The position numbers and the translations under genes are program-made. 34,973 bases of DNA from NCBI GenBank assembly GCA_016873315.1, contig VGXL01000013.1, forward strand, positions 1 to 34,973, in the 5' to 3' direction. This document shows positions 10,520-22,692 of the stretch, piece after piece. This DNA is from Phycisphaerae bacterium. Lineage in GTDB: Bacteria; Planctomycetota; Phycisphaerae; Phycisphaerales; SM1A02. The notes under the pieces were generated by a model. It was not told the DNA's origin. It was given only the letters and a program-made list of their open reading frames with translations, and made no database searches. Every line of letters begins with the position of its first letter. The first letter of the stretch is position 1.

Positions 10520-11503
10520 ATGGGTCGCCCAACCACCTACTCTGCTCACACGCACGACGATGTCGCGCGAGGTCGTCAAGTCGGTTCCCTCAATGCACTC
10601 GCCGCGCTCTTGGGGTGGAGCACGGTGCCGCTGCTGCTGCGTGATCTCGCCGGCCGCGGCGTCGATTTTTGGAGCAACAACGGTTGGCGCTACGGCGCAA
10701 GCGCATTGATCTGGCTGCCGTATGTGATCTGGCATGCGTGGTGTGGCCGCATGCCCAAGGGCATCTGGAAGGCGGCGATCATTCCCAGCATCGCGAACAT
10801 CGCGGGGCAGGCCTGCTTCACGGCGGCGTTCGGGTTGGCGACGCCAGGCATCGTGACCTTTGGGCTCCGAAGCCAACTCATCTTCGTGGCGCTCGGCGCG
10901 TGGTTCCTCTTCCCATCCGAGCGAGCGGTGATGCGCTCGGCGCGCTACCTCGTTGGATTCGCCCTGCTCATCACCGGGCTCATGCCAGTGCTCTTCGACG
11001 GGGAGTGTTCCCTCAGCGGCGCGAACGGCTCCGGCGTCATGATGGCGATCTGCTCCGGGCTGGGCTATGCCTGCTACGGACTCAGCGTGCGGCGTTTCAT
11101 GGCGCCCTACCACCCGGTGCTCGCCTTCGCGGTGATTTGCCAGATCACGGCCGTCGGCCTCGTGGCGTTGATGTTGGCCTTCGGTCGCGATGGCGGTGCC
11201 TATGTGCCATCGCTCGGCTCGCGCGAACTCATCTTCCTCGCGCTCGGCGCGATCATCGGCATCGCCGCCGGGCATGTCTTCTATTACATCGCGATCGCAC
11301 GCCTGGGCGTCGCGGTGACGAGCGGCGTGCTGCAACTGCAGCCTTTCCTCGTCAGCGCGGCGAGTGTCATCGTCTTCGAAGAGCGGCTCACCGGACTGCA
11401 GTGGCTGGGTGGATTCGTCGCGGTCGGCGGAGCGCTCCTGATGCTCACCGCCGAACGCAAGGCCCCGCAGCAGGCCCAAGCCAGCACTGAGACCGGCGAC
11501 TGA
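10520..11503 (+). CDS. EamA/DMT-family membrane transporter
   Basis: The product is 327 residues with about ten hydrophobic helices in two repeats of five, the EamA (drug/metabolite transporter) pattern. The second repeat contains IGIAAGHVFYYIAIARLGVA and ends with a glycine-rich last helix (LQWLGGFVAVGGALLML), both characteristic. An unusually polar N-terminus of about 20 residues precedes the first helix. It begins 3 nt after the SDR stop, so both are in one unit; no leaderless start fits the TACTCT at 10538. The transported compound cannot be predicted, and pairing with an SDR suggests a small metabolite. Confidence 0.88.
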   Translation: MGRPTTYSAHTHDDVARGRQVGSLNALAALLGWSTVPLLLRDLAGRGVDFWSNNGWRYGASALIWLPYVIWHAWCGRMPKGIWKAAIIPSIANIAGQACFTAAFGLATPGIVTFGLRSQLIFVALGAWFLFPSERAVMRSARYLVGFALLITGLMPVLFDGECSLSGANGSGVMMAICSGLGYACYGLSVRRFMAPYHPVLAFAVICQITAVGLVALMLAFGRDGGAYVPSLGSRELIFLALGAIIGIAAGHVFYYIAIARLGVAVTSGVLQLQPFLVSAASVIVFEERLTGLQWLGGFVAVGGALLMLTAERKAPQQAQASTETGD

Positions 11504-11540: not shown

Positions 11541-11987
11541 GTGTCGATGCCCGAACCGATCCAGTGGTCCGAGTGCCTTGCTCGCGAACGGCCCGGCCGC
11601 CGTGGACTGATTGGCGTGCTCATCGTTGCCTTGGCGATGGCCGTCGGACTGGTCGCGCAAGAGTGGTTCGTGGGAGCGCTGGCGGCGGTCGGCTTGGCCG
11701 CGATCAGCGCGGACGGCTGGGCTGGTTGCCGCTGCGCGATGGATGCGCAGGGGATCGTCCGCGCGGGGCCGTTCAGGCGGCGCTCCATGCCTTGGACAAC
11801 GATCGAGACCTTCACCGTGAAGAAGGAGGGCGCCACGCTCGCACGAGCGTCGGGCCGCGGAGCCATCTCATTCCATCTTGATGGCGTGGAGCGCACCGAT
11901 CGCGCGCGCGTGAACCACGCGCTCGATGCGTGGCACGCGTGGTGGATCGCCTCACGAGCAGCATCGGCGGCACCGCACCATGCCTGA
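11541..11987 (+). CDS. Small membrane protein with PH-like domain
   Basis: The product is 148 residues. Two adjacent hydrophobic segments (about 23-39 and 43-58) form a hairpin anchor. A cytoplasmic beta-rich part follows with the pattern GIVRAGPFRRRSMPWTTIETF, the order found in bacterial PH-like (bPH) domains, where a Pro-Trp-x-x-Ile precedes the second half. A long C-terminal helix contains several Trp and Ala. The next gene overlaps its stop by 8 nt. Function unknown; bPH-type proteins often sit at membranes as scaffolds. The family assignment rests on pattern only. Confidence 0.65.
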   Translation: MSMPEPIQWSECLARERPGRRGLIGVLIVALAMAVGLVAQEWFVGALAAVGLAAISADGWAGCRCAMDAQGIVRAGPFRRRSMPWTTIETFTVKKEGATLARASGRGAISFHLDGVERTDRARVNHALDAWHAWWIASRAASAAPHHA

Positions 11988-12339
11988 TCCACAACGCACT
12001 TGGCGCGAAGCGATTCGTCATGCCTTTGCCGTCGAACAACCTGGGCCAGCGACGCTGACCGACGCTGAGTCGGCGGTCGTCGGCCGTCTTGCAGACGAGG
12101 TCGTGCGGCGAGGGATGACCGCGCCTGCACTTCTGGCGCTCGAGTCGTTCCGGCCGCTCAATGCGATCGGTGCGAATGCGATGCACGCGCTCACGCCGTT
12201 CGTGGGGGTGATCGGCGATCCTTCGGCGTTCGCGACGCTGGCGGCGCTCCTGGAGCGGCGCGGGAGCGTCGAGGCGATCTGCCTGATGATCGAAGCGCGC
12301 GCTCGCGCTGGGAGTCCGCCGCAGTCCGGCGGAGCCTGA
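11980..12339 (+). CDS. Small helical protein of unknown function, next to the GlmL-like gene
   Basis: The product is 119 residues, with no signal or membrane segment. It has an all-helical pattern with a central ALESFRPLNAIGANAMHALTPF. That resembles, from memory, small proteins with F-L-E-S-x-x-P-L-N-x-x-G-S-Q motifs that occur beside methyl-transfer or B12-linked genes; unverified. The ATG at 11980 overlaps the preceding stop, indicating coupling with the PH-like gene. The GlmL-like gene begins 44 nt downstream from its own promoter. It may belong to the same system. Confidence 0.6.
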   Translation: MPDPQRTWREAIRHAFAVEQPGPATLTDAESAVVGRLADEVVRRGMTAPALLALESFRPLNAIGANAMHALTPFVGVIGDPSAFATLAALLERRGSVEAICLMIEARARAGSPPQSGGA

Positions 12340-12383: not shown

Positions 12384-14186
12384 ATGCAGAAGGACCCAAG
12401 CCGCATCAAGGTCGTGGTCGCCACCGACTGCGGCAGCACCACCACGAAGGCGATCCTCATCGAGTGCGTGGATGGCGTGTACCGCCAGACCCACCGCGCC
12501 GAAGCCCCGACCACTGTCGAGGCTCCCTTCGCCGATGTCACGCTCGGCGTGTCGAACTCGGTGACCGAGCTCCAGGAACTCAGCGGTCGGCGGCTCGTGA
12601 ACGATGATGGCACGATCCTTCGGCGCACCTCGCCCGATGCGGCCGATGGATGCGATGTGTACATCTCGACGAGCAGCGCCGGCGGTGGACTGCAAATGAT
12701 GGTGGCCGGTGTCGTCAAAGAGATGACTGCCGAGAGCGCCAAGCGCGCGGCGCTTGGTGCAGGTGCGATCGTCATGGACACGATCGCGAGCAACGATCGA
12801 CGACGGCCCCATGAGCAAGTGCAGCGCATCCGTGAACTCCGACCAGACATGGTCCTGATTTCGGGCGGCACCGACGGGGGCGACACGAAGAAGGTCACTG
12901 AACTTGCCGAACTCATCGCGCCCGCGAAGCCTCGCCCTCGCTTCGGCGGCGAGTACAGCCTTCCCATCATCTTCGCGGGCAACCGCGACGCGCGTCCGGC
13001 GATCGAGCGCACCTTCGCGAGCGGTGGCTTCGATCTCAAGGTCGTTGACAACCTTCGCCCAACGCTGGAACGCGAGCATCTTGGGCCGGCGCGCGAGACG
13101 ATCCACGATGTCTTCCTTGAGCACGTCATGGCGCATGCGCCCGGTTACGACCGGCTGATCGCGTGGGCTGATGCGCCGATCATGCCCACGCCAGGCGCGG
13201 TCGGTGACATTTTGCAGGCGATCGCGAAGGGTCGCGGAATCAATGTGGTTGGCGTCGACATCGGTGGCGCGACGACCGATGTCTTCAGCGTTTTCGACGG
13301 GTCATTCAATCGCACCGTGAGTGCGAACTTGGGAATGAGCTACTCGATCAGCAATGTGTGCGCCGAGGCGGGCATGGACAACGTGCTCCGGTGGGTGCAC
13401 CTGGACATGGACGAGCGTGAGCTGCGCAACCGGGTCAAGAACAAGATGATTCGGCCGACGACGATCCCGCAGACGCACGAGGCGCTCGTCTTCGAGCAAG
13501 CTGTCAGCCGTGAAGCACTGCGCTTGGCCTATGTCCAGCACAAGGCCTTCGCGACGGAACTCAAGGGCGTGCAGCAACAGCGCACGGTCGGTGATGCGTT
13601 CAGCCAGTCCGAGGGCGGCCGTTCGCTCGTGAGTGGCATGAAGCTCGACCTGCTCGTGGCCAGCGGTGGCGTGCTGAGCCACGCACCGCGCATGGAGCAG
13701 ACCGCCGCGATGTTGATCGACGCCTTCGAGCCCGAGGGCTTCACTGAGCTTGCGAAGGACAGCATCTTCATGATGCCGCATCTGGGCGTGCTCGCGACCG
13801 TGCATGAGCGCGCAGCGATGGAAGTCTTCGAGCGCGACTGCCTGATCATGCTCGGCACATGCATCGCGCCGGCCGGCACGGCGGTCGCAGGCAAGCCCGT
13901 CATGCGCTGGAGCGCACAATGGGATGGCGGCAGCGCTGAAGGCACGCTGATGGCGCAGGAGATGAAGTTGCTGCGCATCGGCGATCGCGCGCAGGTCGAG
14001 GTCACACCAGAGCGAGGCTTCGATGTCGGCGCTGGCCCAGGCGTTGCGGTCAAGCGCGAGGTCCGGGGCGGCAGCGTCGGACTCATCCTTGATGGTCGCG
14101 GGCGATCACTCGCGGTTCCGAGCGGTGCCGAGGGCAGGCGGCTCGTCGCTGCGTGGGCGAAGGCACTCGAACTGCATCCTGACTGA
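12384..14186 (+). CDS. GlmL/MutL-family ASKHA ATPase
   Basis: The product is 600 residues. The sugar kinase/Hsp70/actin fold is visible from phosphate-binding motif 1, DCGSTTTK (15-22), and motif 2, DIGGATTD, around 292-299. The whole length matches the glutamate mutase L (MutL) family: YISTSSAGGGLQMMV, DMVLISGGTDGGD, PIIFAGNRDA and a C-terminal half with GVLSHAPR. In clostridia this protein accompanies B12-dependent glutamate mutase, but no mutase gene (large E or small S subunit) is in the window. In several bacterial groups homologues stand next to DUF6754-type membrane genes, as here. Probably a cytoplasmic ATPase serving the membrane complex encoded downstream. The function is inference; the fold assignment is firm. 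Confidence 0.88.
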   Translation: MQKDPSRIKVVVATDCGSTTTKAILIECVDGVYRQTHRAEAPTTVEAPFADVTLGVSNSVTELQELSGRRLVNDDGTILRRTSPDAADGCDVYISTSSAGGGLQMMVAGVVKEMTAESAKRAALGAGAIVMDTIASNDRRRPHEQVQRIRELRPDMVLISGGTDGGDTKKVTELAELIAPAKPRPRFGGEYSLPIIFAGNRDARPAIERTFASGGFDLKVVDNLRPTLEREHLGPARETIHDVFLEHVMAHAPGYDRLIAWADAPIMPTPGAVGDILQAIAKGRGINVVGVDIGGATTDVFSVFDGSFNRTVSANLGMSYSISNVCAEAGMDNVLRWVHLDMDERELRNRVKNKMIRPTTIPQTHEALVFEQAVSREALRLAYVQHKAFATELKGVQQQRTVGDAFSQSEGGRSLVSGMKLDLLVASGGVLSHAPRMEQTAAMLIDAFEPEGFTELAKDSIFMMPHLGVLATVHERAAMEVFERDCLIMLGTCIAPAGTAVAGKPVMRWSAQWDGGSAEGTLMAQEMKLLRIGDRAQVEVTPERGFDVGAGPGVAVKREVRGGSVGLILDGRGRSLAVPSGAEGRRLVAAWAKALELHPD

Positions 14187-14189
14187 GGA
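14185..14189 (+). promoter_or_regulatory. Shine-Dalgarno site of the barrel-sandwich gene
   Basis: GAGGA ends 7 nt before the ATG at 14197 and overlaps the stop of the ATPase gene. It is one of the few clear ribosome sites, and it serves an internal operon gene. Confidence 0.65.
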
Positions 14190-14196
14190 CACGACC

Positions 14197-15327
14197 ATGG
14201 CCAAGGCCTACACACCCGGACTGACCGTGAGCTCGCGCGTGCGGTACCGCGCACGGCGACTCCTTCCCCTGACCGGTCGCATCACCGTGAAGCTCGGCGA
14301 CCGCGTCAAGGCGACCGACGTCGTTGCGCAGACCGACCTCGAGGGTGACATCACGCCGATGAAGATGTCGAATCTGCTCTCGTGTGCACCGCGCGATGTG
14401 CCGGGACTGCTCTTGAAACCTGTCGGTTCGGCGATCGCGAGGGACGAGCCGATCGCACAGTCGAAGGGGATCTTCGGCATGATGAAGGTCACGGTGAAGG
14501 CGACCGCCGCCGGCACCATCGAGAGCGCCAGCGATTCGACAGGCATGGTCATGATCCGCGGCGCGGCGCAGCCCGTGCAGGTCCGCGCGTTCACCTGTGG
14601 GCGCGTCGTCGACATCCTTGGCAACGAGGGCGTGGTCGTCGAGAACGATGTCTCGCTCATCCAAGGGATCTTCGGGATCGGCGGCGAGGCGTATGGACCG
14701 ATCGCGGTCGCCTGCGCGCGGCCGGACGAGCGGCTCGAAGCCTCCTGCATCCGTCCGGAACATGCGGGGTGCATCCTCGTCGGTGGCGCACGCATGACCA
14801 TCGACGCGATTCGCCGTGCGATCGACGTCGGTGTGGCGGCGATCGTGTCGGGCGGCATCGACGATGCGGATCTGAAGGCGCTGTTGGGGCACGATCTTGG
14901 CGTGGCGATCACCGGCAGCGAACGGGTCGGCCTGACGCTGGTCGTGACGGAAGGATTCGGCGACATCGCCATGGCCGCGCGCACGCACACGCTGTTGACT
15001 TCGCATGCAGGTCACCCGGCGAGCGTGAACGGGGCCACGCAGATCCGCGCGGGCGTCATGCGCCCCGAGATCGTCATTCCGCTCGCTGACGAGGCGACCG
15101 GCGAAGTTCAGGCGGGCGGCGGAGCGACTGCTGGGGAACTCTCGATCGGCACACCTGTCCGCGTGATCCGTGACCCGTGGTTTGGCGCGCTCGGCACGGT
15201 CGCGGCGCTGCCCGAACAGCCGGCCGTGCTGGACTCCGGATCGAAGGCTCGCGTCCTCGAGGTCGCACTGGCCGACGGGCAGAGGGTCACGGTGCCACGC
15301 GCCAATGTTGAGCTGATCGCCGGATGA
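14197..15327 (+). CDS. Uncharacterised barrel-sandwich protein with KOW-like C-terminus, partner of DUF6754
   Basis: The product is 376 residues, soluble by hydropathy. The N-terminal part (about 10-50) has a lipoyl/RnfC-type barrel-sandwich rhythm, PLTGRITVKLGDRVKATDVVA. It is repeated in a second half-motif around 87-130 with KSKGIFGM-like and AAGTIESAS elements. A strongly conserved-looking core follows (IQGIFGIGGEAYGPIAV, GGIDDADLKALLGHDLGVAITG, NGATQIRAGVMRPEIVIPL). The last 60 residues (TPVRVIRDPWFGALG) look like a KOW/SH3 barrel. I recall this domain order from genes beside DUF6754 proteins in other phyla; no function is known to me. It follows the ATPase gene after 10 nt with a good ribosome site. 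Possibly a cytoplasmic scaffold docking on the membrane proteins. Confidence 0.8.
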   Translation: MAKAYTPGLTVSSRVRYRARRLLPLTGRITVKLGDRVKATDVVAQTDLEGDITPMKMSNLLSCAPRDVPGLLLKPVGSAIARDEPIAQSKGIFGMMKVTVKATAAGTIESASDSTGMVMIRGAAQPVQVRAFTCGRVVDILGNEGVVVENDVSLIQGIFGIGGEAYGPIAVACARPDERLEASCIRPEHAGCILVGGARMTIDAIRRAIDVGVAAIVSGGIDDADLKALLGHDLGVAITGSERVGLTLVVTEGFGDIAMAARTHTLLTSHAGHPASVNGATQIRAGVMRPEIVIPLADEATGEVQAGGGATAGELSIGTPVRVIRDPWFGALGTVAALPEQPAVLDSGSKARVLEVALADGQRVTVPRANVELIAG

Positions 15328-15362
15328 TGGACGGGCGCTCGGCGCACGATGGACGATCGCGT

Positions 15363-15368
15363 TAGGCT
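15363..15368 (+). promoter_or_regulatory. -10 box inside the membrane operon
   Basis: TAGGCT is followed by 6 nt and the ATG at 15375, in a 47-nt gap. The four membrane genes may thus also be made independently of the ATPase. Confidence 0.55.
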
Positions 15369-15374
15369 CCACGC

Positions 15375-16184
15375 ATGGTGCTCGGTGCCGACGCATCGTT
15401 CCTGAACCCCGACAAGCTGCTGCTCTTGGTGGTGCTTGTGGCGACGTGCGCATGCATCATTGCGAGCATGGTGTTGGCACGAGCCGGCCGCGTGCCGAAG
15501 ATTCGCCGCATTGCCGGCCTCGAGGCCGTCGAGGAAGCGGTGGGCCGCGCGACCGAGATGGGCCGGCCGATCCTGTTCGTCCCGGGCATCCAAGACATGG
15601 ACAACCCGATGACGGTCGCGGGCATCACGGTGCTCAGCCGCGTCGCGGGTACAGCCGCGCAATACGACGCCACCCTTGATGTTCCGGTGAGCCGATCGCT
15701 CGTCATGCAGGCAGCGCGCGAAAGCGTTCAGGCGGCAGCACTCCAAGCCGGTCAGCCCGATTGGTTCGACCCCGAGCGCGTTCGCTACATCACGGACGAG
15801 CAGTTCGGATACGCGGCGTACGCGGCGGGCGCGATGGCGCGTGACAAGCCTGCAGCCTGCTTCTACATGGGCTGCTTCTTCGCCGAGAGCTTGATTCTTG
15901 CGGAGAATGGCAACGCGGTTGGTGCGATTCAGATTGCTGGCACCGCGGAAACCGCGCAGCTGCCCTTCTTCGTGGCCAGTTGCGATTACACGCTGATCGG
16001 CGAGGAGTTCTTCGCAGCAAGCGCCTACCTGAGCGGGGCGCCCGACCAACTCGGCACGCTGCGTGGCCAAGACATTGCCAAGGCCTTGATCGCGTTGGTG
16101 CTCGTGGGCGGCGTGGTCATGGCCACCGTGAAGGTGTTCACGCCGAAGTCGGACCGAGCGCCGACGGCGGAGATGGCGCCATGA
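15375..16184 (+). CDS. DUF6754-type membrane protein
   Basis: The product is 269 residues. A hydrophobic segment at 14-35 and another at 235-253 flank a long central domain with ILFVPGIQDMDNPMTVAGITVL, a segment around 131-165 with YITDEQFGYAAYAAG, and ACFYMGCFFAESLILAE followed by GAIQIAGTAETAQLPFFVASCDYTLIGEE. These blocks match what I know as DUF6754, a family named only by number. The central part is partly hydrophobic and may dip into the membrane. The following gene starts within its stop codon. Biochemical role unknown; its constant company with the GlmL-like ATPase and the barrel-sandwich protein suggests a complex. Confidence 0.82.
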   Translation: MVLGADASFLNPDKLLLLVVLVATCACIIASMVLARAGRVPKIRRIAGLEAVEEAVGRATEMGRPILFVPGIQDMDNPMTVAGITVLSRVAGTAAQYDATLDVPVSRSLVMQAARESVQAAALQAGQPDWFDPERVRYITDEQFGYAAYAAGAMARDKPAACFYMGCFFAESLILAENGNAVGAIQIAGTAETAQLPFFVASCDYTLIGEEFFAASAYLSGAPDQLGTLRGQDIAKALIALVLVGGVVMATVKVFTPKSDRAPTAEMAP

Positions 16185-16876
16185 GTCGCTCGATCGCTCT
16201 GCTCATCTGCCTGCTCGGCGGACTCACCATGCTCGTGAGCCCGTTCCTGCCAATGGCCACCGAATGGTCCAACGAGGTCACGGACTGGTTCAACATCCTT
16301 GCCGCGATGGCGTTCGTGCTCGGTGGCGGCAGCCTGCTGAAGGTGCAGCTCATGCGCCTGAGCGCGCGCGGTCCCGGATGGGGCTACTCGGCCGTCACGC
16401 TCCTGGCGTTCATCGTCACACTCTGGGTCGGTCTGGGCAAGGTCGGGGTCGTTGCCGATCCATCTGCACCCACAGTGGCGTGGAGCGGCAAGCCCGACGA
16501 TGAGGGTTCGGCGTTCTGGTGGATCTATCTCTACGTGATGACGCCCATCACCTCGACGCTCTTCGCAGTGCTCGCGTTCTATGTCGCGAGCGCGGCGTTC
16601 CGCGCCTTCCGTGCCAAGAACCTCGAGGCCACGCTGCTGCTCGGCACGGCCTTCGTGATCTTGCTCGGTCGCACGTTCGCGGGCGTGGTGCTCACCGGAT
16701 GGCTGCCCGACTGGGCGAGCGGACTGCGCCTGGAAAACCTAGCCGTCACCATCATGGATGTCTTCAACACCGCCGGCAATCGCGCGATCATCATTGGGAT
16801 TGCACTCGGCGTCGCTGCGACCGGGATCCGTCTTCTGATCGGACTCGATCGCAGTTACCTCGGGGGTGACGCGTGA
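16181..16876 (+). CDS. Polytopic membrane protein (about 6 helices) of the DUF6754 operon
   Basis: The product is 231 residues, nearly all membrane. Hydrophobic segments lie at about 4-24, 36-55, 73-91, 112-143, 148-175 and 200-222. A short outside or inside loop with PSAPTVAWSGKPDDEGS separates helices 3 and 4, and FRAFRAKNLEATLLL follows helix 4. No transporter signature is recognisable. The ATG overlaps the preceding stop by 4 nt, with GGAG 8 nt upstream, and its own stop overlaps the next GTG. Clearly part of the same translation-coupled block. Function unknown. Confidence 0.75.
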   Translation: MSRSIALLICLLGGLTMLVSPFLPMATEWSNEVTDWFNILAAMAFVLGGGSLLKVQLMRLSARGPGWGYSAVTLLAFIVTLWVGLGKVGVVADPSAPTVAWSGKPDDEGSAFWWIYLYVMTPITSTLFAVLAFYVASAAFRAFRAKNLEATLLLGTAFVILLGRTFAGVVLTGWLPDWASGLRLENLAVTIMDVFNTAGNRAIIIGIALGVAATGIRLLIGLDRSYLGGDA

Positions 16877-17742
16877 GCGGCACACTGGACAGGCGGTGGA
16901 TTTACCTCGGCATGATGCTCGCCGTCGCGCTGCCGATCTTGTGGAACGGCGTCACCGGCAAGACGTTCCCTGAGTCGCCGACGCCGCCGTCGCAGGCGTG
17001 CTTCGATGCAATCGAGGCGTTGCCCGAAGGTTCGCGGGTCTTGATGAGCTTTGACTACGACCCCGCGAGCGAGGGCGAGTTGTCACCGATGGCCACATCG
17101 TTGATGCGACACCTGATGCACAAGCGACTGAAGCCGGTCGTCATTGCACTGTGGCCGCTTGGACCGACGAAGGCCGAGGAAACGATCGCGAATGTGATCA
17201 AGGGTGACTTCCCCGACCGGGTGAGCGGGAAGGACTTCGTGAACCTGGGTTTCCAGACCGGCGGCGAAGGCGTCCTCAAGGTGATCGGCACAGACTTCCG
17301 CAAGCAGTTCCCGCTCGATCGATCGGGCACACCGGTCGATCGCCTGCCGATCATGGAAGGCATCACCAAGGTCGGTGACTTCCCGCTGGTCATCACGATC
17401 AGCGCGGGCTACCCCGGCGGCAAAGAGTGGGTGCAGTATGTCTCGAGCGCGAACCCAGGCTTGGTCTTGCTCGCTGGCGTCACAGGTGTGCAAGCTTCGC
17501 AGATCTACTCGTACTACCCAGGCCAACTTCGCGGCATGCTCGCGGCGATCAAGGGTGCAGCGGAGTACGAAGCGCTGGTGAGCGCAGCGATCGACGGTGA
17601 CCGCGTGACGCCGCCTCTCTACACCGAGGCTCGCCGACGCATGGCGCCGCAACTGTTCGGACATCTTCTGCTGATCGCGCTGATCATCATCGGAAACGCC
17701 GTGTACTTCTCGCAGCGTGGACGGAAGGCGGTGGCACAATGA
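16873..17742 (+). CDS. Bitopic protein with large extramembrane domain, DUF6754 operon
   Basis: The product is 289 residues from a GTG that overlaps the previous stop. A first hydrophobic segment (about 10-28) and a last one (about 268-285) enclose a soluble alpha/beta domain. In it, VLMSFDYDPASEGELSPM (about 57-74), KPVVIALWPLGP, FVNLGFQTGGEG, YPGGKEWVQY and AGVTGVQASQIYSYYPG...MLAAIKGAAEYE stand out. The pattern of alternating strands and helices resembles a Rossmann-like or periplasmic-binding fold, but no cofactor motif is certain. A G-G-G-G-G-T stretch before the GTG may act as ribosome site. Function unknown; probably the soluble sensor or catalytic part of the membrane complex. Confidence 0.75.
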   Translation: MSGTLDRRWIYLGMMLAVALPILWNGVTGKTFPESPTPPSQACFDAIEALPEGSRVLMSFDYDPASEGELSPMATSLMRHLMHKRLKPVVIALWPLGPTKAEETIANVIKGDFPDRVSGKDFVNLGFQTGGEGVLKVIGTDFRKQFPLDRSGTPVDRLPIMEGITKVGDFPLVITISAGYPGGKEWVQYVSSANPGLVLLAGVTGVQASQIYSYYPGQLRGMLAAIKGAAEYEALVSAAIDGDRVTPPLYTEARRRMAPQLFGHLLLIALIIIGNAVYFSQRGRKAVAQ

Positions 17743-18797
17743 GCGACGCGATCATGAATGAAGCGTCGCCTCAGCAAGGCAAGTGGTGGATCGGCCTCTT
17801 CCTTGCGATCGCTGTGCTCGTGGCGATCCGCGCCAGCATTGGCGAGGGTATGGGCCGCGCCTATGTGCAGACTGACTCGACGTCGTACTCGTCCGCGACG
17901 GGCGACGATGGCCGAGTGATGTGGACGGCCGTCGCCGACGGAACGGCTGGATCCGTCACGATTGAGCGGGTGCTCTTCGCGTCAGCAGGGGAGTACCGCG
18001 CGGCTGAAGCAGCGACGCCTGGTCAGCAGGCGATCCGCATCTCGTGGGACCGAACCCTGGGACTATGGTTGGCGGCGTTCTTCACGCTGGCAATCTTCAG
18101 CTTCCTGATGGGCGACAACCCGGCCTACAAGTTCACCGAGAGCATCGTGATCGGTGTGAGCGCCGGATACTGGATGGTGGTTGGCTTCTGGGCAATGCTC
18201 GTCCCCAAGCTCGTGGCGCAACTCGCTCCGAGCATGGTCAAGGCGTGGTGCATGCCCAATCTCGATGTCAGCGCGTTCAATCCAGTCGCCCTGATCCCGC
18301 TTGGCTTGGGCATCATGCTGCTTTCGCAGCTCACGCCGCTGGGCCGCCACATCGGCCGCTGGCCGCTGGCGTTCGTGATCGGCACGTTTGCTGGCTTGAA
18401 GATGATCAGCCATGTCGAGAGCGACATCATTGAGCAGGCGCGCGCCACGATGATTCCCCTCGTTGCGTTCGGCGACGACGGATCCTTCGCACCGTGGGAT
18501 TCAGTCCGCAACATCCTCATCGTGGGCGGGGTGCTGTGCACGCTCGCGTACTTCGTCTTCAGCGTCGAACACAAGGGCGCTGTTGGCCGTGCGGCGCGGG
18601 TGGGTGTGTGGTTCCTGATGATCACCTTCGGATCGGCCTTCGGCTTCACAGTCATGGGTCGCATTGCGCTGCTCGCGGCTCGCTTTGAATTCCTCTTCAT
18701 CGATTGGCTCTGGCTCATCGATCCCAAGGGACAGCGGATGGTGGCAACCGTGTCCGCGATCGCGGGGTCTTGCTCAGCGATCCTGAACGCGATCTGA
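17739..18797 (+). CDS. Polytopic membrane protein (about 7-8 helices), last gene of the DUF6754 operon
   Basis: The product is 352 residues. A first helix (about 16-33) is followed by a polar domain of about 70 residues (34-105) that is likely extracytoplasmic. Six or seven further hydrophobic helices run to the C-terminus, including SIVIGVSAGYWMVVGFWAMLVPKLV and a final FEFLFIDWLWLID. A purine-rich site (GGAAGG) precedes the ATG, which overlaps the preceding stop by 4 nt. The last codons and the stop lie within a set of 8-bp direct repeats that may control the porin gene downstream. No family name recognised. Confidence 0.75.
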   Translation: MSDAIMNEASPQQGKWWIGLFLAIAVLVAIRASIGEGMGRAYVQTDSTSYSSATGDDGRVMWTAVADGTAGSVTIERVLFASAGEYRAAEAATPGQQAIRISWDRTLGLWLAAFFTLAIFSFLMGDNPAYKFTESIVIGVSAGYWMVVGFWAMLVPKLVAQLAPSMVKAWCMPNLDVSAFNPVALIPLGLGIMLLSQLTPLGRHIGRWPLAFVIGTFAGLKMISHVESDIIEQARATMIPLVAFGDDGSFAPWDSVRNILIVGGVLCTLAYFVFSVEHKGAVGRAARVGVWFLMITFGSAFGFTVMGRIALLAARFEFLFIDWLWLIDPKGQRMVATVSAIAGSCSAILNAI

Positions 18798-18812: not shown

Positions 18813-18864
18813 CGCGCCAATCCCATCACCGCGGAATGGACATGCAGGTTTAACGATCCGCGTG

Positions 18865-18893
18865 ATGGTGCCTGCCTATGCTTCATGCACCAT
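18865..18893. promoter_or_regulatory. 7-bp inverted repeat flanking the porin -10 box
   Basis: ATGGTGC (18865-18871) and GCACCAT (18887-18893) form a perfect dyad with a 15-nt centre that contains TATGCT. The right arm covers the start codon. It could be an operator or an RNA hairpin. Confidence 0.35.
18877..18882 (+). promoter_or_regulatory. -10 box of the porin gene
   Basis: TATGCT is followed by 9 nt and the ATG at 18892. Confidence 0.5.
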
Positions 18894-20292
18894 GATCCAC
18901 CTCCCCATGATCCATCTCGCGACAGTCCTCGCAGGTTTCAGCGTTGGTCTTGGCGGTGATGGCGGAGTTCAGGACGAGATCGATGCGCTGCGCGCCGATC
19001 TACGCGAATTCCAGCGGAGTCAGTCGCAGGGCACGCTCGACGCTGAGCGCGCCGCAGAGATCCGCGCGATCGTGAAAGACGCACTCTCGGACGCGGGCAC
19101 GCGCACCTCGATGCAGGATGGCCGCGGCCAGCAGGGTTTCCAAGGCGACAACTTCTACCGGCTCGATGCGTCCGGCACCGAGATCAACTCGGCCGACGGC
19201 AATTTCCGTTACCACCTGAACATCCTGATGCAGTTGCGGTTCACCTGGAATCACCGTGAGGATCTGGGTGACACCATGGGGTTCGAGAATCGCCGTGTGC
19301 GGTTCATCATGGATGGTCATGCCTTCGGCAAGGAGTGGCGCTACGCGTTGCAGGTGGCCCAATCGGCCGGGGCCTCTCCTGTGTATCTCGAAGAGGCCTG
19401 GGTCGGACGAGTGCTTTCACCCCAGCTCCAACTGAAGGTTGGGCAGTTTCGCCCCACCTTTACGCGCGAAGAACTGATGAGCGCGGCGTCGACGCTCTTC
19501 ATGGAGCACAGCGCGATCAACAACTACTTCCGGGCGGGATGGTCGCGTGGCATCGCGCTTGAGTGGGAGACCGATCAGTTTATGTGGCGCAGTGGAGTGT
19601 TCGACGGCATCACTGTGCGATCGCCGACCACGCCCGGTGGGGCTGGTTGGAACACGGGCAACACGAACAACTTGCCGTGGGACAATCCGTTGGCCATCGA
19701 CTGGGCGATCGCGAGCCGCTTCGACTGGAAGTTCGCGGGAACCTGGAAGGAACTGCGCGACTACACGCCGTGGCTCGACATGAAGGGGCAGGCCACCAAC
19801 CTTGGCGTGGCTGTTGATGCAGAACAGGCGAGTCCATCGGCACCGTTCCCTTCCGATCCGTGGATGATCGAGGTCACGGCCGATCTTCTGCACAAGCACC
19901 AGGGCTGGTCGCTCTTTGCGTTGGGCGTCTTCCGTCGCGTGCAGAGCGACCTTGGCCAGTCGAACGAATGGGGCGCACTCGTGCAGGCCAGCACGATGCT
20001 CGCCGAAAAGTTGGAGACTGGTGTTCGGTACAGCGTCGCCAACACGGGCGCGTCATCCGACCTGTCGTACCCCATGCTCAACCTCCTTGAACTGAACCTG
20101 AGCTACTACTTCCACAAGCACAGCATGAAGGTTCAGTTGGACATGGGCTACTCGTTCGATGGTCTGAGCGCGAACAAGTTCGGCAACGGTTTCGCGAACC
20201 CAAACGCCAACCTGTTGCCTGATGTCCAGCCACCGACGGGCGATGCCTCGGGGCAGATGTACGTCGCCGTCCAGTACCAAGTGCTCTTCTGA
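18892..20292 (+). CDS. OprP/OprO-like outer-membrane porin
   Basis: The product is 466 residues. A signal peptide (hydrophobic IHLATVLAGFSVGLG) is followed by a short coiled coil (about 28-70, DEIDALRADLREFQRSQSQ), as in trimeric porins with an N-terminal stalk. A beta-barrel follows, with RRVRFIMDGHAFGKEWRYALQV, LQLKVGQFRPTFTREELMS and GIALEWETDQ, blocks typical of the phosphate-selective porin O/P family. It ends in an aromatic C-terminal strand, YVAVQYQVLF, with the terminal Phe needed for outer-membrane insertion. The ATG at 18892 is preferred over 18862 because of the -10 box. The ion transported may be phosphate or polyphosphate; the upstream repeats favour this but do not prove it. Confidence 0.85.
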   Translation: MIHLPMIHLATVLAGFSVGLGGDGGVQDEIDALRADLREFQRSQSQGTLDAERAAEIRAIVKDALSDAGTRTSMQDGRGQQGFQGDNFYRLDASGTEINSADGNFRYHLNILMQLRFTWNHREDLGDTMGFENRRVRFIMDGHAFGKEWRYALQVAQSAGASPVYLEEAWVGRVLSPQLQLKVGQFRPTFTREELMSAASTLFMEHSAINNYFRAGWSRGIALEWETDQFMWRSGVFDGITVRSPTTPGGAGWNTGNTNNLPWDNPLAIDWAIASRFDWKFAGTWKELRDYTPWLDMKGQATNLGVAVDAEQASPSAPFPSDPWMIEVTADLLHKHQGWSLFALGVFRRVQSDLGQSNEWGALVQASTMLAEKLETGVRYSVANTGASSDLSYPMLNLLELNLSYYFHKHSMKVQLDMGYSFDGLSANKFGNGFANPNANLLPDVQPPTGDASGQMYVAVQYQVLF

Positions 20293-20307
20293 GCTGGGGT
20301 CGGGGCG

Positions 20308-20313
20308 TATGCT
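20308..20313 (+). promoter_or_regulatory. -10 box of zwf-pgl
   Basis: TATGCT is followed by 9 nt and the zwf ATG at 20323. Confidence 0.5.
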
Positions 20314-20322
20314 CCGGCGCCC

Positions 20323-21894
20323 ATGACGGCCGCGCCGATTGCCCCAGCGACTTCCAGCCAGCCCGCCACGACTTTGACCCAGTCGTCCGCGGGTGCCGAC
20401 CCGTGCGTGCTCCTGATCCTTGGCGCGAGCGGCGACCTGACGCATCGCAAGCTCATCCCGTCGATGTACGAGATGCACTGTCTCGGTGCACTCCATCCTT
20501 CGACGGCGATCCTCGGCATGAGCCGGACTGCGAAGACGGATGAGAGTTGGCGCGCGGAACTGCGTGCGGCTGCGCAGGCATCGGTGCAGGGCTTCGATCC
20601 AACCCGCTGGCAGTCGTTTGAAGAGCGGCTCTTCTATCACGCGGGCGATGCAGTGGATCAGGCGTCCTATCCGGCGCTCGTCGAGCGACTGAGTGCGCTG
20701 GCGAGAACACGCGCCACGCGCGACAACATCCTCTTCTACCTCTCGGTTGCTCCATCGCTCTACGAGCCGATCGTGCGTTGCATCGACGAAGCCGGCCTGG
20801 TCACCGAAGGCAAGCGATGGTGCAGCATTGATCCCAACGGCCGATCGTGGCAACGGATCGTGGTCGAGAAGCCGTTCGGGACCGACGAAGCCAGCGCGGC
20901 AAGCCTGAACCGAGCGCTCGGCAGGGTGTTCGAAGAAGACTCGACCTACCGCATCGACCACTACCTGGGCAAAGATCTGGTGCAGAGCCTGCTCGTGCTT
21001 CGATTCGCCAACAGCATCTTCGAGCCGGTGTGGAATCACCGCTACATCGACCATGTGCAGATCACGGCGGCTGAAACCGTTGGCATCGGCACGCGTGGTG
21101 GCTTCTACGAGCAAACGGGTGCGGTGCGCGACATGATCCAGAGCCACCTGATGCAGGTGCTGGCGTTCGTGGCGATGGAGCCGCCGAATCGGATGCGTGC
21201 CAACGAGATCCGAAGCGAGAAGATCAAGATCATCGGTGCGATCAGACAGACCGCCGCGTCCGAGGTCGCCACGCACGGTGCGTTTGGCCAGTACGCCGCT
21301 GGTGCTGAGCCCGCGTACGCACAGCTTCCAGGCGTCGCGCCGGGTTCAACGGTCGAGACATTCGCCGCCCTCAAGTTGCACCTGGATACTTGGCGATGGG
21401 CCGGCACGCCGTTCTACCTTCGCACTGGCAAGGCCATGCGCGCGAAGCGCACTGAGGTCGTGGTGCAGTTCAAACCACCGGCTGCGGACCTCTTCAAGGA
21501 GGTGCCGCACGGGGCCGGCGGCGTGCAGGGCAATCGTCTGGTGATTGAGATCGCACCGCGCGAGCGCGCGGAGTTGCGCTTTGAAAGCAAGATCCCAGGT
21601 CGCCGCATGGCGATCGCGCCGATTGCGATGCAAGCGGACTTTCGCAAGGAGTTCGGCGGGAATCCCATCGAGGCGTACGGGCCGCTCATCGTGGATGCCA
21701 TGCGCGGTGACCAATCGCTCTTCAAGCACCGCACCGAAGTCGAAGGCGCATGGAGCGCGGTCATGCCGTTCCTGGATGCGCGCAGTGCGCCACTGCGCGA
21801 GGGGATTGCTGGCAACTACGCGCAGGGTTCATGGGGTCCGCGCGCGGCTGACGACCTGATGCTGCGCGATGGACGGGCTTGGCACGACGGCTGA
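20323..21894 (+). CDS. zwf: Glucose-6-phosphate 1-dehydrogenase
   Basis: The product is 523 residues and oxidises glucose-6-phosphate to 6-phosphogluconolactone with NAD(P)+, the first step of the oxidative pentose phosphate pathway. The dinucleotide site LGASGDLTHRKLIP (33-46), VVEKPFG (about 182-188) and the active-site RIDHYLGK (about 210-217) are intact. Further family blocks are FANSIFEPVWN and TPFYLRTGKAM. A 26-residue Ala/Thr/Ser-rich N-terminal extension precedes the Rossmann fold. The lactonase gene follows after 3 nt, so the two consecutive reactions are encoded together. Confidence 0.97.
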   Translation: MTAAPIAPATSSQPATTLTQSSAGADPCVLLILGASGDLTHRKLIPSMYEMHCLGALHPSTAILGMSRTAKTDESWRAELRAAAQASVQGFDPTRWQSFEERLFYHAGDAVDQASYPALVERLSALARTRATRDNILFYLSVAPSLYEPIVRCIDEAGLVTEGKRWCSIDPNGRSWQRIVVEKPFGTDEASAASLNRALGRVFEEDSTYRIDHYLGKDLVQSLLVLRFANSIFEPVWNHRYIDHVQITAAETVGIGTRGGFYEQTGAVRDMIQSHLMQVLAFVAMEPPNRMRANEIRSEKIKIIGAIRQTAASEVATHGAFGQYAAGAEPAYAQLPGVAPGSTVETFAALKLHLDTWRWAGTPFYLRTGKAMRAKRTEVVVQFKPPAADLFKEVPHGAGGVQGNRLVIEIAPRERAELRFESKIPGRRMAIAPIAMQADFRKEFGGNPIEAYGPLIVDAMRGDQSLFKHRTEVEGAWSAVMPFLDARSAPLREGIAGNYAQGSWGPRAADDLMLRDGRAWHDG

Positions 21895-21897
21895 GCC

Positions 21898-22692
21898 ATG
21901 GAGATCGATCCGTACGAACTCGTGGATGATTCGTTCGCGGCACCCGCGCTGCCTGGTCGGGTGGTCACGGGAGTCGATGCCGACGATGTGCACGGATCGC
22001 TCGGCGCGGATCTGCTTCTGCAGGCGAACAATTGCGTGCGTGCGTTCGGCTCATTCCATCTTGCCCTTTCGGGCGGATCCACGCCGCTGCCGTTCTATCG
22101 CTGCCTGATGGTCGATCCACGCTTTCGCCACCTGCCGTGGGAACGCACGCACCTGTGGGTCGTTGACGAACGCTGCGTCGCGCCCGATGACGATCGCTGC
22201 AACTTTCGGCACATCCGCGAAACGATCGTCGAGCATGTTGACATCCCGCCGCAGCAGGTGCATCCGATGGACGCCCACCTGCCGGGCGCCGCCGCTGCGT
22301 ACGACCGAGCCATTCGCGAGACGCTCGCGTGGCGCGAAGCAGGACACAACCGGCTCGACTTCGTGCTCCTGGGCATGGGCGGCGACGGCCACACGGCGAG
22401 TCTTTTTCCGCACAGTCCGGCGCTGCGCGAGTCCGACGCGCTCATCACCTTCAACGATGGCCCCACCGTCACGCCGCCGGACCGCGTCACGATGACCTAT
22501 CGACTGCTGAACGCTTCGCGATTCGTCGCCGTGCTCGTCATGGGCGCATCCAAGCACGCGATGCTCGAACGCGTGGCCCGGGCCGATGCAGAAGATGCCG
22601 CCAACCTTCCGATCCGCGGGATTGCACCGACGGGCGGAGAGCTGCGTTGGTACCTCGACCGTGCCGCCTGCACTGGCGCGCAGGCCCGCTGA
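21898..22692 (+). CDS. pgl: 6-phosphogluconolactonase
   Basis: The product is 264 residues and hydrolyses the lactone made by Zwf to 6-phosphogluconate. Family motifs include LALSGGSTPLPFYRCL (about 54-69), WVVDERCVAPDDDRCNFRHI and LLGMGGDGHTASLFPHSPAL, the NagB/RpiA-type signature with the DGH triad. Its start lies 3 nt after the zwf stop with no clear ribosome site, consistent with coupled translation. The 3' end faces ruvX with only 9 nt between the stops, so transcription of the two units must terminate in each other's coding region or read through. Confidence 0.95.
   Translation: MEIDPYELVDDSFAAPALPGRVVTGVDADDVHGSLGADLLLQANNCVRAFGSFHLALSGGSTPLPFYRCLMVDPRFRHLPWERTHLWVVDERCVAPDDDRCNFRHIRETIVEHVDIPPQQVHPMDAHLPGAAAAYDRAIRETLAWREAGHNRLDFVLLGMGGDGHTASLFPHSPALRESDALITFNDGPTVTPPDRVTMTYRLLNASRFVAVLVMGASKHAMLERVARADAEDAANLPIRGIAPTGGELRWYLDRAACTGAQAR

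Follow-up and report, generated by a model that had tools for sequence, protein, structure and literature searches.

What might an ATPase of the MutL family be doing at the head of a run of membrane-protein genes? The question is raised by positions 12384-18797 of contig VGXL01000013.1 from a Phycisphaerae bacterium (assembly GCA_016873315.1), part of a stretch of 34,973 nucleotides that was analysed as a whole and that we refer to as the window. Here, an earlier note made from the letters of the DNA (the sequence-only reading) had described six consecutive genes, all of which were confirmed as intact, contiguous open reading frames (ORFs) on the + strand (A to F). That reading had listed only these six; clustering of the ORFs that flank related loci revealed two further members, G and H, directly upstream, so that the conserved unit comprises eight genes, which we name by their order on the strand as H-G-A-B-C-D-E-F. 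These genes are a real conserved system. We give a probability of about 0.55 to the reading that the system is an ATP-driven inner-membrane machine of a class not recognised before, in which A and B act on C-D-E-F across the membrane. In such a machine an ASKHA ATPase of the MutL type would work with a barrel-sandwich adaptor to drive a four-subunit membrane complex that has Rossmann-like domains on both faces, is found in many phyla and often occurs as tandem paralogous membrane units.

The basis for this reading consists of co-inheritance, conserved gene order, fusion of A to B, conserved ATPase motifs and predicted topology. Of 86 related loci with enough downstream sequence, 81 carried C-D-E-F in this order on a single strand, and two or three tandem C-D-E-F units were present at 17 loci. 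In the window the overlaps of 4 nucleotides reported among these four genes are exact at all three junctions (ATGA at C/D, GTGA at D/E and ATGA at E/F). The fixed stoichiometry that had been read from them would need care when applied to the whole unit, given that A and B are encoded apart from C-D-E-F in several genomes. Within 294 genomes of the phylum, A was identified in 80, B in 71 and C in 76, and 67 genomes had the full set (Fisher p = 4e-49 for A with C and 1.5e-53 for B with C), although these p-values ignore the relatedness of the genomes, which counts against the reading; the better evidence is therefore provided by genomes in which linkage has been lost. The complete, single-contig genome G024 retains these genes at four distant places (B-C, 0.29 Mb; A, 0.79 Mb; F, 2.30 Mb; E, 3.53 Mb). 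In a Brocadiaceae-like genome (G217), A-B (3.08 Mb) lie a long way from C-E-F (0.13 Mb). Parts of the system are also separated in G137, G194, G087, G105 and G283 (the searches for scattered loci covered A, B, C, E and F).

The pattern extends well beyond the Planctomycetota. In other phyla A was present in 34 of the 35 genomes carrying C, in line with the statement in the sequence-only reading that the partners A, B and C co-occur in distant phyla. The neighbourhood is kept across phyla, and A, B and C still co-occur when unlinked. In one genome collection at least 564 stretches encode a relative of C, which is a DUF6754 protein, and the lineages represented are Planctomycetota, Zixibacteria, Neomarinimicrobiota, Cloacimonadota, Acidobacteriota, Riflebacteria, Latescibacterota, Gemmatimonadota and others. 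Anammox planctomycetes are probably among the carriers of the system. A transposon-essentiality map has been published for the planctomycete Planctopirus limnophila (PMC10632474), and Planctomycetaceae related to this species carry the system. Searches of plasmid and viral collections with C found nothing, and the system thus does not have the look of a mobile element in those collections. Taken together, it is very probable that the genes form one functional system.

The first gene of the original six, A (12384-14186, +), encodes a protein of 600 amino acids that matches the MutL family PF13941 over its full length (E=9.7e-129; 430.5 bits against a gathering cut-off of 27; positions 1-450 of 450) and continues past the MutL domain in a C-terminal extension. 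Its TDCGSTTTK, DIGGATTD and SGG.LSHAP motifs were invariant in 24 family members, and mean column identity in the family is 66% across distant phyla. Because the nucleotide-binding motifs are invariant, A is probably active as an ATPase. To our knowledge, MutL/GlmL proteins are known solely as accessory factors of B12 mutases. The window protein fails the cut-offs of both the NCBI GlmL model NF040745 (232.9 bits against 475) and the NCBI GlmL subfamily model (155.3 bits against 204.05), and also lies under the NCBI cut-off for the GlmL-related ornithine protein. In a phylogenetic tree, all 38 A proteins of the system formed a single clade (support 96/98), about 8.4 substitutions per site away from the mutase-linked MutL proteins found where B and C are lacking; the window A groups with planctomycete metagenome-assembled genomes, mostly Phycisphaerae. 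The absence of a mutase subunit noted earlier also proved to hold genome-wide for the glutamate mutase E subunit (PF06368), which was not found in the genome of the window, nor in any of 70 searched genomes carrying both A and C. The same subunit was found in five of seven genomes that have MutL but neither B nor C, and in all five it lies about 200 bp or less from a MutL match. The sequence-only reading had named two outcomes that would count against it, a lack of co-conservation and a mutase pair elsewhere in the genome without its own GlmL; both were checked and neither was borne out. Failing the GlmL cut-offs, forming its own clade and occurring with C in genomes that lack glutamate mutase, A is thus distinct from GlmL.

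The second gene, B (14197-15327, +), encodes a soluble protein of 376 amino acids that has no conserved cysteines and was described in the sequence-only reading as barrel-sandwich/KOW-like. This description stood at the level of the family, in which Biotin_lipoyl was matched by 17 of 23 members (best 8e-7), RnfC_N by 15 of 23 (best 1.3e-6) and NQRA_N by 10 of 23, with KOW matches that were weak and confined to two of the 23. The window's own B had no Pfam match, and a search of PDB sequences with B returned only weak matches of the KOW region to SPT5. We describe B as having an NqrA/RnfC-N-like N-terminus and a KOW-like C-terminus. An MKM in the window B was considered as a biotinylation site and rejected, since the family consensus differs. 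A and B act as a single unit: they are fused, with B at the C-terminus of A, at three Neomarinimicrobiota loci (L061, L071 and L098), and divergent A-B paralogues (AB2), fused or adjacent, were found at L136, L137, L138, L139, L140 and L156-L160.

The four remaining genes encode membrane proteins. C (15375-16184, +) is a full-length match to DUF6754 (PF20539; E=7.3e-110; 366.6 bits against a gathering cut-off of 27; positions 4-252 of 257), which, like the MutL assignment of A, agrees with the sequence-only reading. It is followed by D (16181-16876, +), E (16873-17742, +) and F (17739-18797, +), none of which had a Pfam or NCBIfam match at E<0.05. Transmembrane (TM) prediction assigned two helices to C, about six to D and a polytopic arrangement to F, whose family alignment shows the conserved motifs 'FSFLYKDNPFYK..E', 'YFFFS.EHKG' and 'LMITFGASFGYTVMGR'. 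Thus, of the two polytopic proteins and one bitopic protein proposed earlier, D and F are indeed polytopic; E is not strictly bitopic, having two predicted TM helices, one near either end. High-confidence structural models generated as single chains using AlphaFold 2 (predicted local distance difference test scores of 93.1 for C and 92.6 for E) gave both proteins the same layout, in which a Rossmann-like domain sits between two TM helices. Application of the positive-inside rule to the families placed the soluble domain of C in the cytosol (158 of 158 members) and the soluble domain of E outside the cytoplasm (110 of 113), so that the two domains are predicted to lie on opposite faces of the membrane. 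Despite the similar layout, a profile comparison of C with E gave no support for homology, which we therefore do not claim.

Four acidic residues of C (E177, D204, E210 and E211) form an invariant cluster, and the second TM helix of E has conserved polar residues (Q260, H264 and N275). In relatives, a loop of D, which the charge pattern suggests is on the outer side, carries inserts of FG-GAP repeats (L085) or an FHA domain (L022), and one E protein carries HEAT repeats (L027). Across the five family alignments, only two columns contain cysteine in at least 50% of members, the first belonging to C (92%) and the other to E (60%); no member of the B-F families has a CxxCH or CxxCxxC motif, and conserved pairs of cysteines were not found. 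The cobalamin-binding motif DxHxxG was likewise not conserved in C-F (0 of 162 C, 3 of 159 D, 0 of 141 E and 0 of 118 F proteins) and was seen in 7 of 78 B proteins. Two other candidate features were discarded: an FN3-like N-terminal extension seen by eye in relatives of C, which the window C does not have and which Pfam did not confirm in four members, and an apparent fusion of C to SppA at L112, which spans a run of N.

How might these parts work together? The proposal of a conserved membrane machine with an ATPase, already made in the sequence-only reading, is supported by co-conservation and co-occurrence, from which a single physical complex would be a further step. In the mechanism we envisage, A would hydrolyse ATP and B would act as a cytosolic adaptor between A and the cytosolic domain of C. 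Through B, A would drive a conformational change in this domain that could be relayed from C, by way of D and F, to E and its outer domain. ATP hydrolysis would in this way power work across the membrane, for which we prefer the movement of a substrate or its loading into the cell envelope; substrate transport as the role of the machine is put forward tentatively, as a possibility. The species-specific outer inserts in D (FG-GAP, FHA) and E (HEAT) may bind partners or substrate, and H and G may serve as accessory membrane-associated factors.

The two genes upstream fit within the unit as follows. G (11980-12339, +; 119 amino acids), directly upstream of A, has the conserved motif 'SRPLNxxGSQxMHFFxP...LExRGSI'. 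Its family was found at 50 loci, and it remains beside A-B where these are unlinked from C-D-E-F (L144, L145 and L149). H (11541-11987, +), which shares 8 nucleotides with G, encodes a small membrane protein with a TM hairpin and a bacterial-PH-like domain. Its 29 homologues lie mostly upstream of G-A, and bPH_6 was matched by nine of 20 family members (best 8.4e-7), with the window H under the curated cut-off. An EamA-type transporter gene (10520-11503), on the same strand and 37 nucleotides 5' of H, seems to lie outside the conserved unit. Directly downstream of F lies an OprP-type outer-membrane porin gene (18862-20292, +; PF07396, E=2.6e-12) that is not a core part; its homologues adjoin the cluster only in close relatives (L053, L055, L056, L057 and L064). 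In the window and in close relatives the porin gene, zwf and pgl follow one another with short gaps (18862-22692 in the window) and are possibly co-transcribed.

Other neighbours recur within particular lineages. At three Planctomycetaceae loci (L035, L075 and L088), B-C lies downstream of a gene for an FtsY-like signal recognition particle receptor, confirmed by Pfam at L075 and seen as a homologous ORF at the other two; in this arrangement, A, E and F are located elsewhere, as tested in G024. At seven Phycisphaerae-like loci (L073, L081, L094, L095, L103, L119 and L130), ORFs that resemble plsX, fabH, fabD, fabG and fabF by eye lie downstream of the system. We set aside the fatty-acid-synthesis, FtsY and porin-zwf-pgl neighbours as functional evidence because they are lineage-specific. 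Were the first two real hints, the system might be a protein secretion or envelope-assembly apparatus of certain diderm phyla, a specific form of the machine proposed above, to which the protein-binding domains inserted in D and E would be well suited. We consider this doubtful, as these neighbours are restricted to 3 (FtsY) and 7 (fatty-acid synthesis) of about 100 loci and the window proteins match no secretion-system model.

In a second explanation, A-B would be an ATP-dependent chaperone that reactivates or assembles a cofactor enzyme, the role proposed for GlmL with glutamate mutase, and C-D-E-F would be its membrane-bound client. Membership of A in the MutL family fits such a role, orphan A-B paralogues would suit a chaperone with several clients, and the invariant acidic cluster of C is compatible with a client enzyme. 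This is nevertheless rather unlikely, given the absence of the mutase from the window's own genome and from the 70 genomes with A and C, the distance of A from mutase-linked MutL proteins and the lack of a conserved DxHxxG in C-F. In addition, six loci searched against Rfam had no match to any family and hence no cobalamin riboswitch.

Less probable still is an ion-translocating, energy-converting complex akin to RNF or NQR, in which B would take the part of NqrA or RnfC. The barrel-sandwich domains matched in the B family, the polytopic D and F and the polar residues in the second TM helix of E all point in this direction, yet the B-F families lack CxxCH and CxxCxxC motifs and have only the two cysteine-rich columns, the window proteins match no RNF or NQR model and an ASKHA ATPase is present. 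Finally, that A-B (with G and H) and C-D-E-F are two independent systems, neighbours by chance, is very unlikely, for although the modules are separable, lying apart in Brocadiaceae-like genomes and in several that are Planctomycetaceae-like, their co-occurrence survives this loss of linkage.

Against the ATP-driven machine itself stand several observations. The proposed assembly of A-F into one physical complex is drawn from genes and single-chain models. Genome G153, which is 99% complete and belongs to the same family as genomes with the whole system, retains G-A-B (at L149) and has no match for C, E or F. The AB2 paralogues, those found being in genomes where the main system is present as well, have no C-D-E-F alongside and no consistent neighbour, which suggests that A-B could have another client. 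No conserved neighbour beyond the unit points to a substrate. With A, C, D, E or F as the query, a search of PDB sequences gave no homologue, and Foldseek searches with C and E returned generic Rossmann folds only (template modelling score ~0.3, high root-mean-square deviation), so that no mechanism can be read from them; the names of these matches were not taken as functions, given the low scores and high deviations.

With respect to known systems, no PADLOC model of an anti-phage defence system matched nine window proteins at E<=0.01, and in a library of open-access papers (subscription papers and preprints being outside its scope) no paper naming DUF6754, PF13941 or PF20539 was found. C is a full-length member of DUF6754, a family whose Pfam entry gives no function. 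RNF and Na+-NQR resemble the system in having polytopic membrane partners and possibly in a barrel-sandwich N-terminus of B (matched across the B family, the window B alone being without a match), whereas B-F lack redox-cofactor motifs and A and C-F have no Pfam or NCBIfam homology to RNF/NQR subunits (RnfADE/NqrBDE). A resembles the hydantoinase/oxoprolinase ASKHA enzymes (HyuA) in that it matches PF01968 weakly (E=2e-5, residues 285-315, barely above the curated cut-off), but this match is confined to its phosphate-binding stretch, and no HyuB-type partner was seen in the cluster. A further comparison is with GlmL/MutL (NF040745, PF13941): A has the full MutL domain and the ASKHA motifs, but scores below the GlmL cut-offs, forms a separate clade, carries a C-terminal extension, has B as a partner or fusion and is encoded in a genome without the mutase. 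A whole MutL clade is in this way tied to an uncharacterised membrane complex which, if it is the ATP-driven machine proposed here, would represent a new way of powering work at the bacterial membrane. As a system these genes appear to be new, and at their centre stands a new clade within an ATPase family that is already known.

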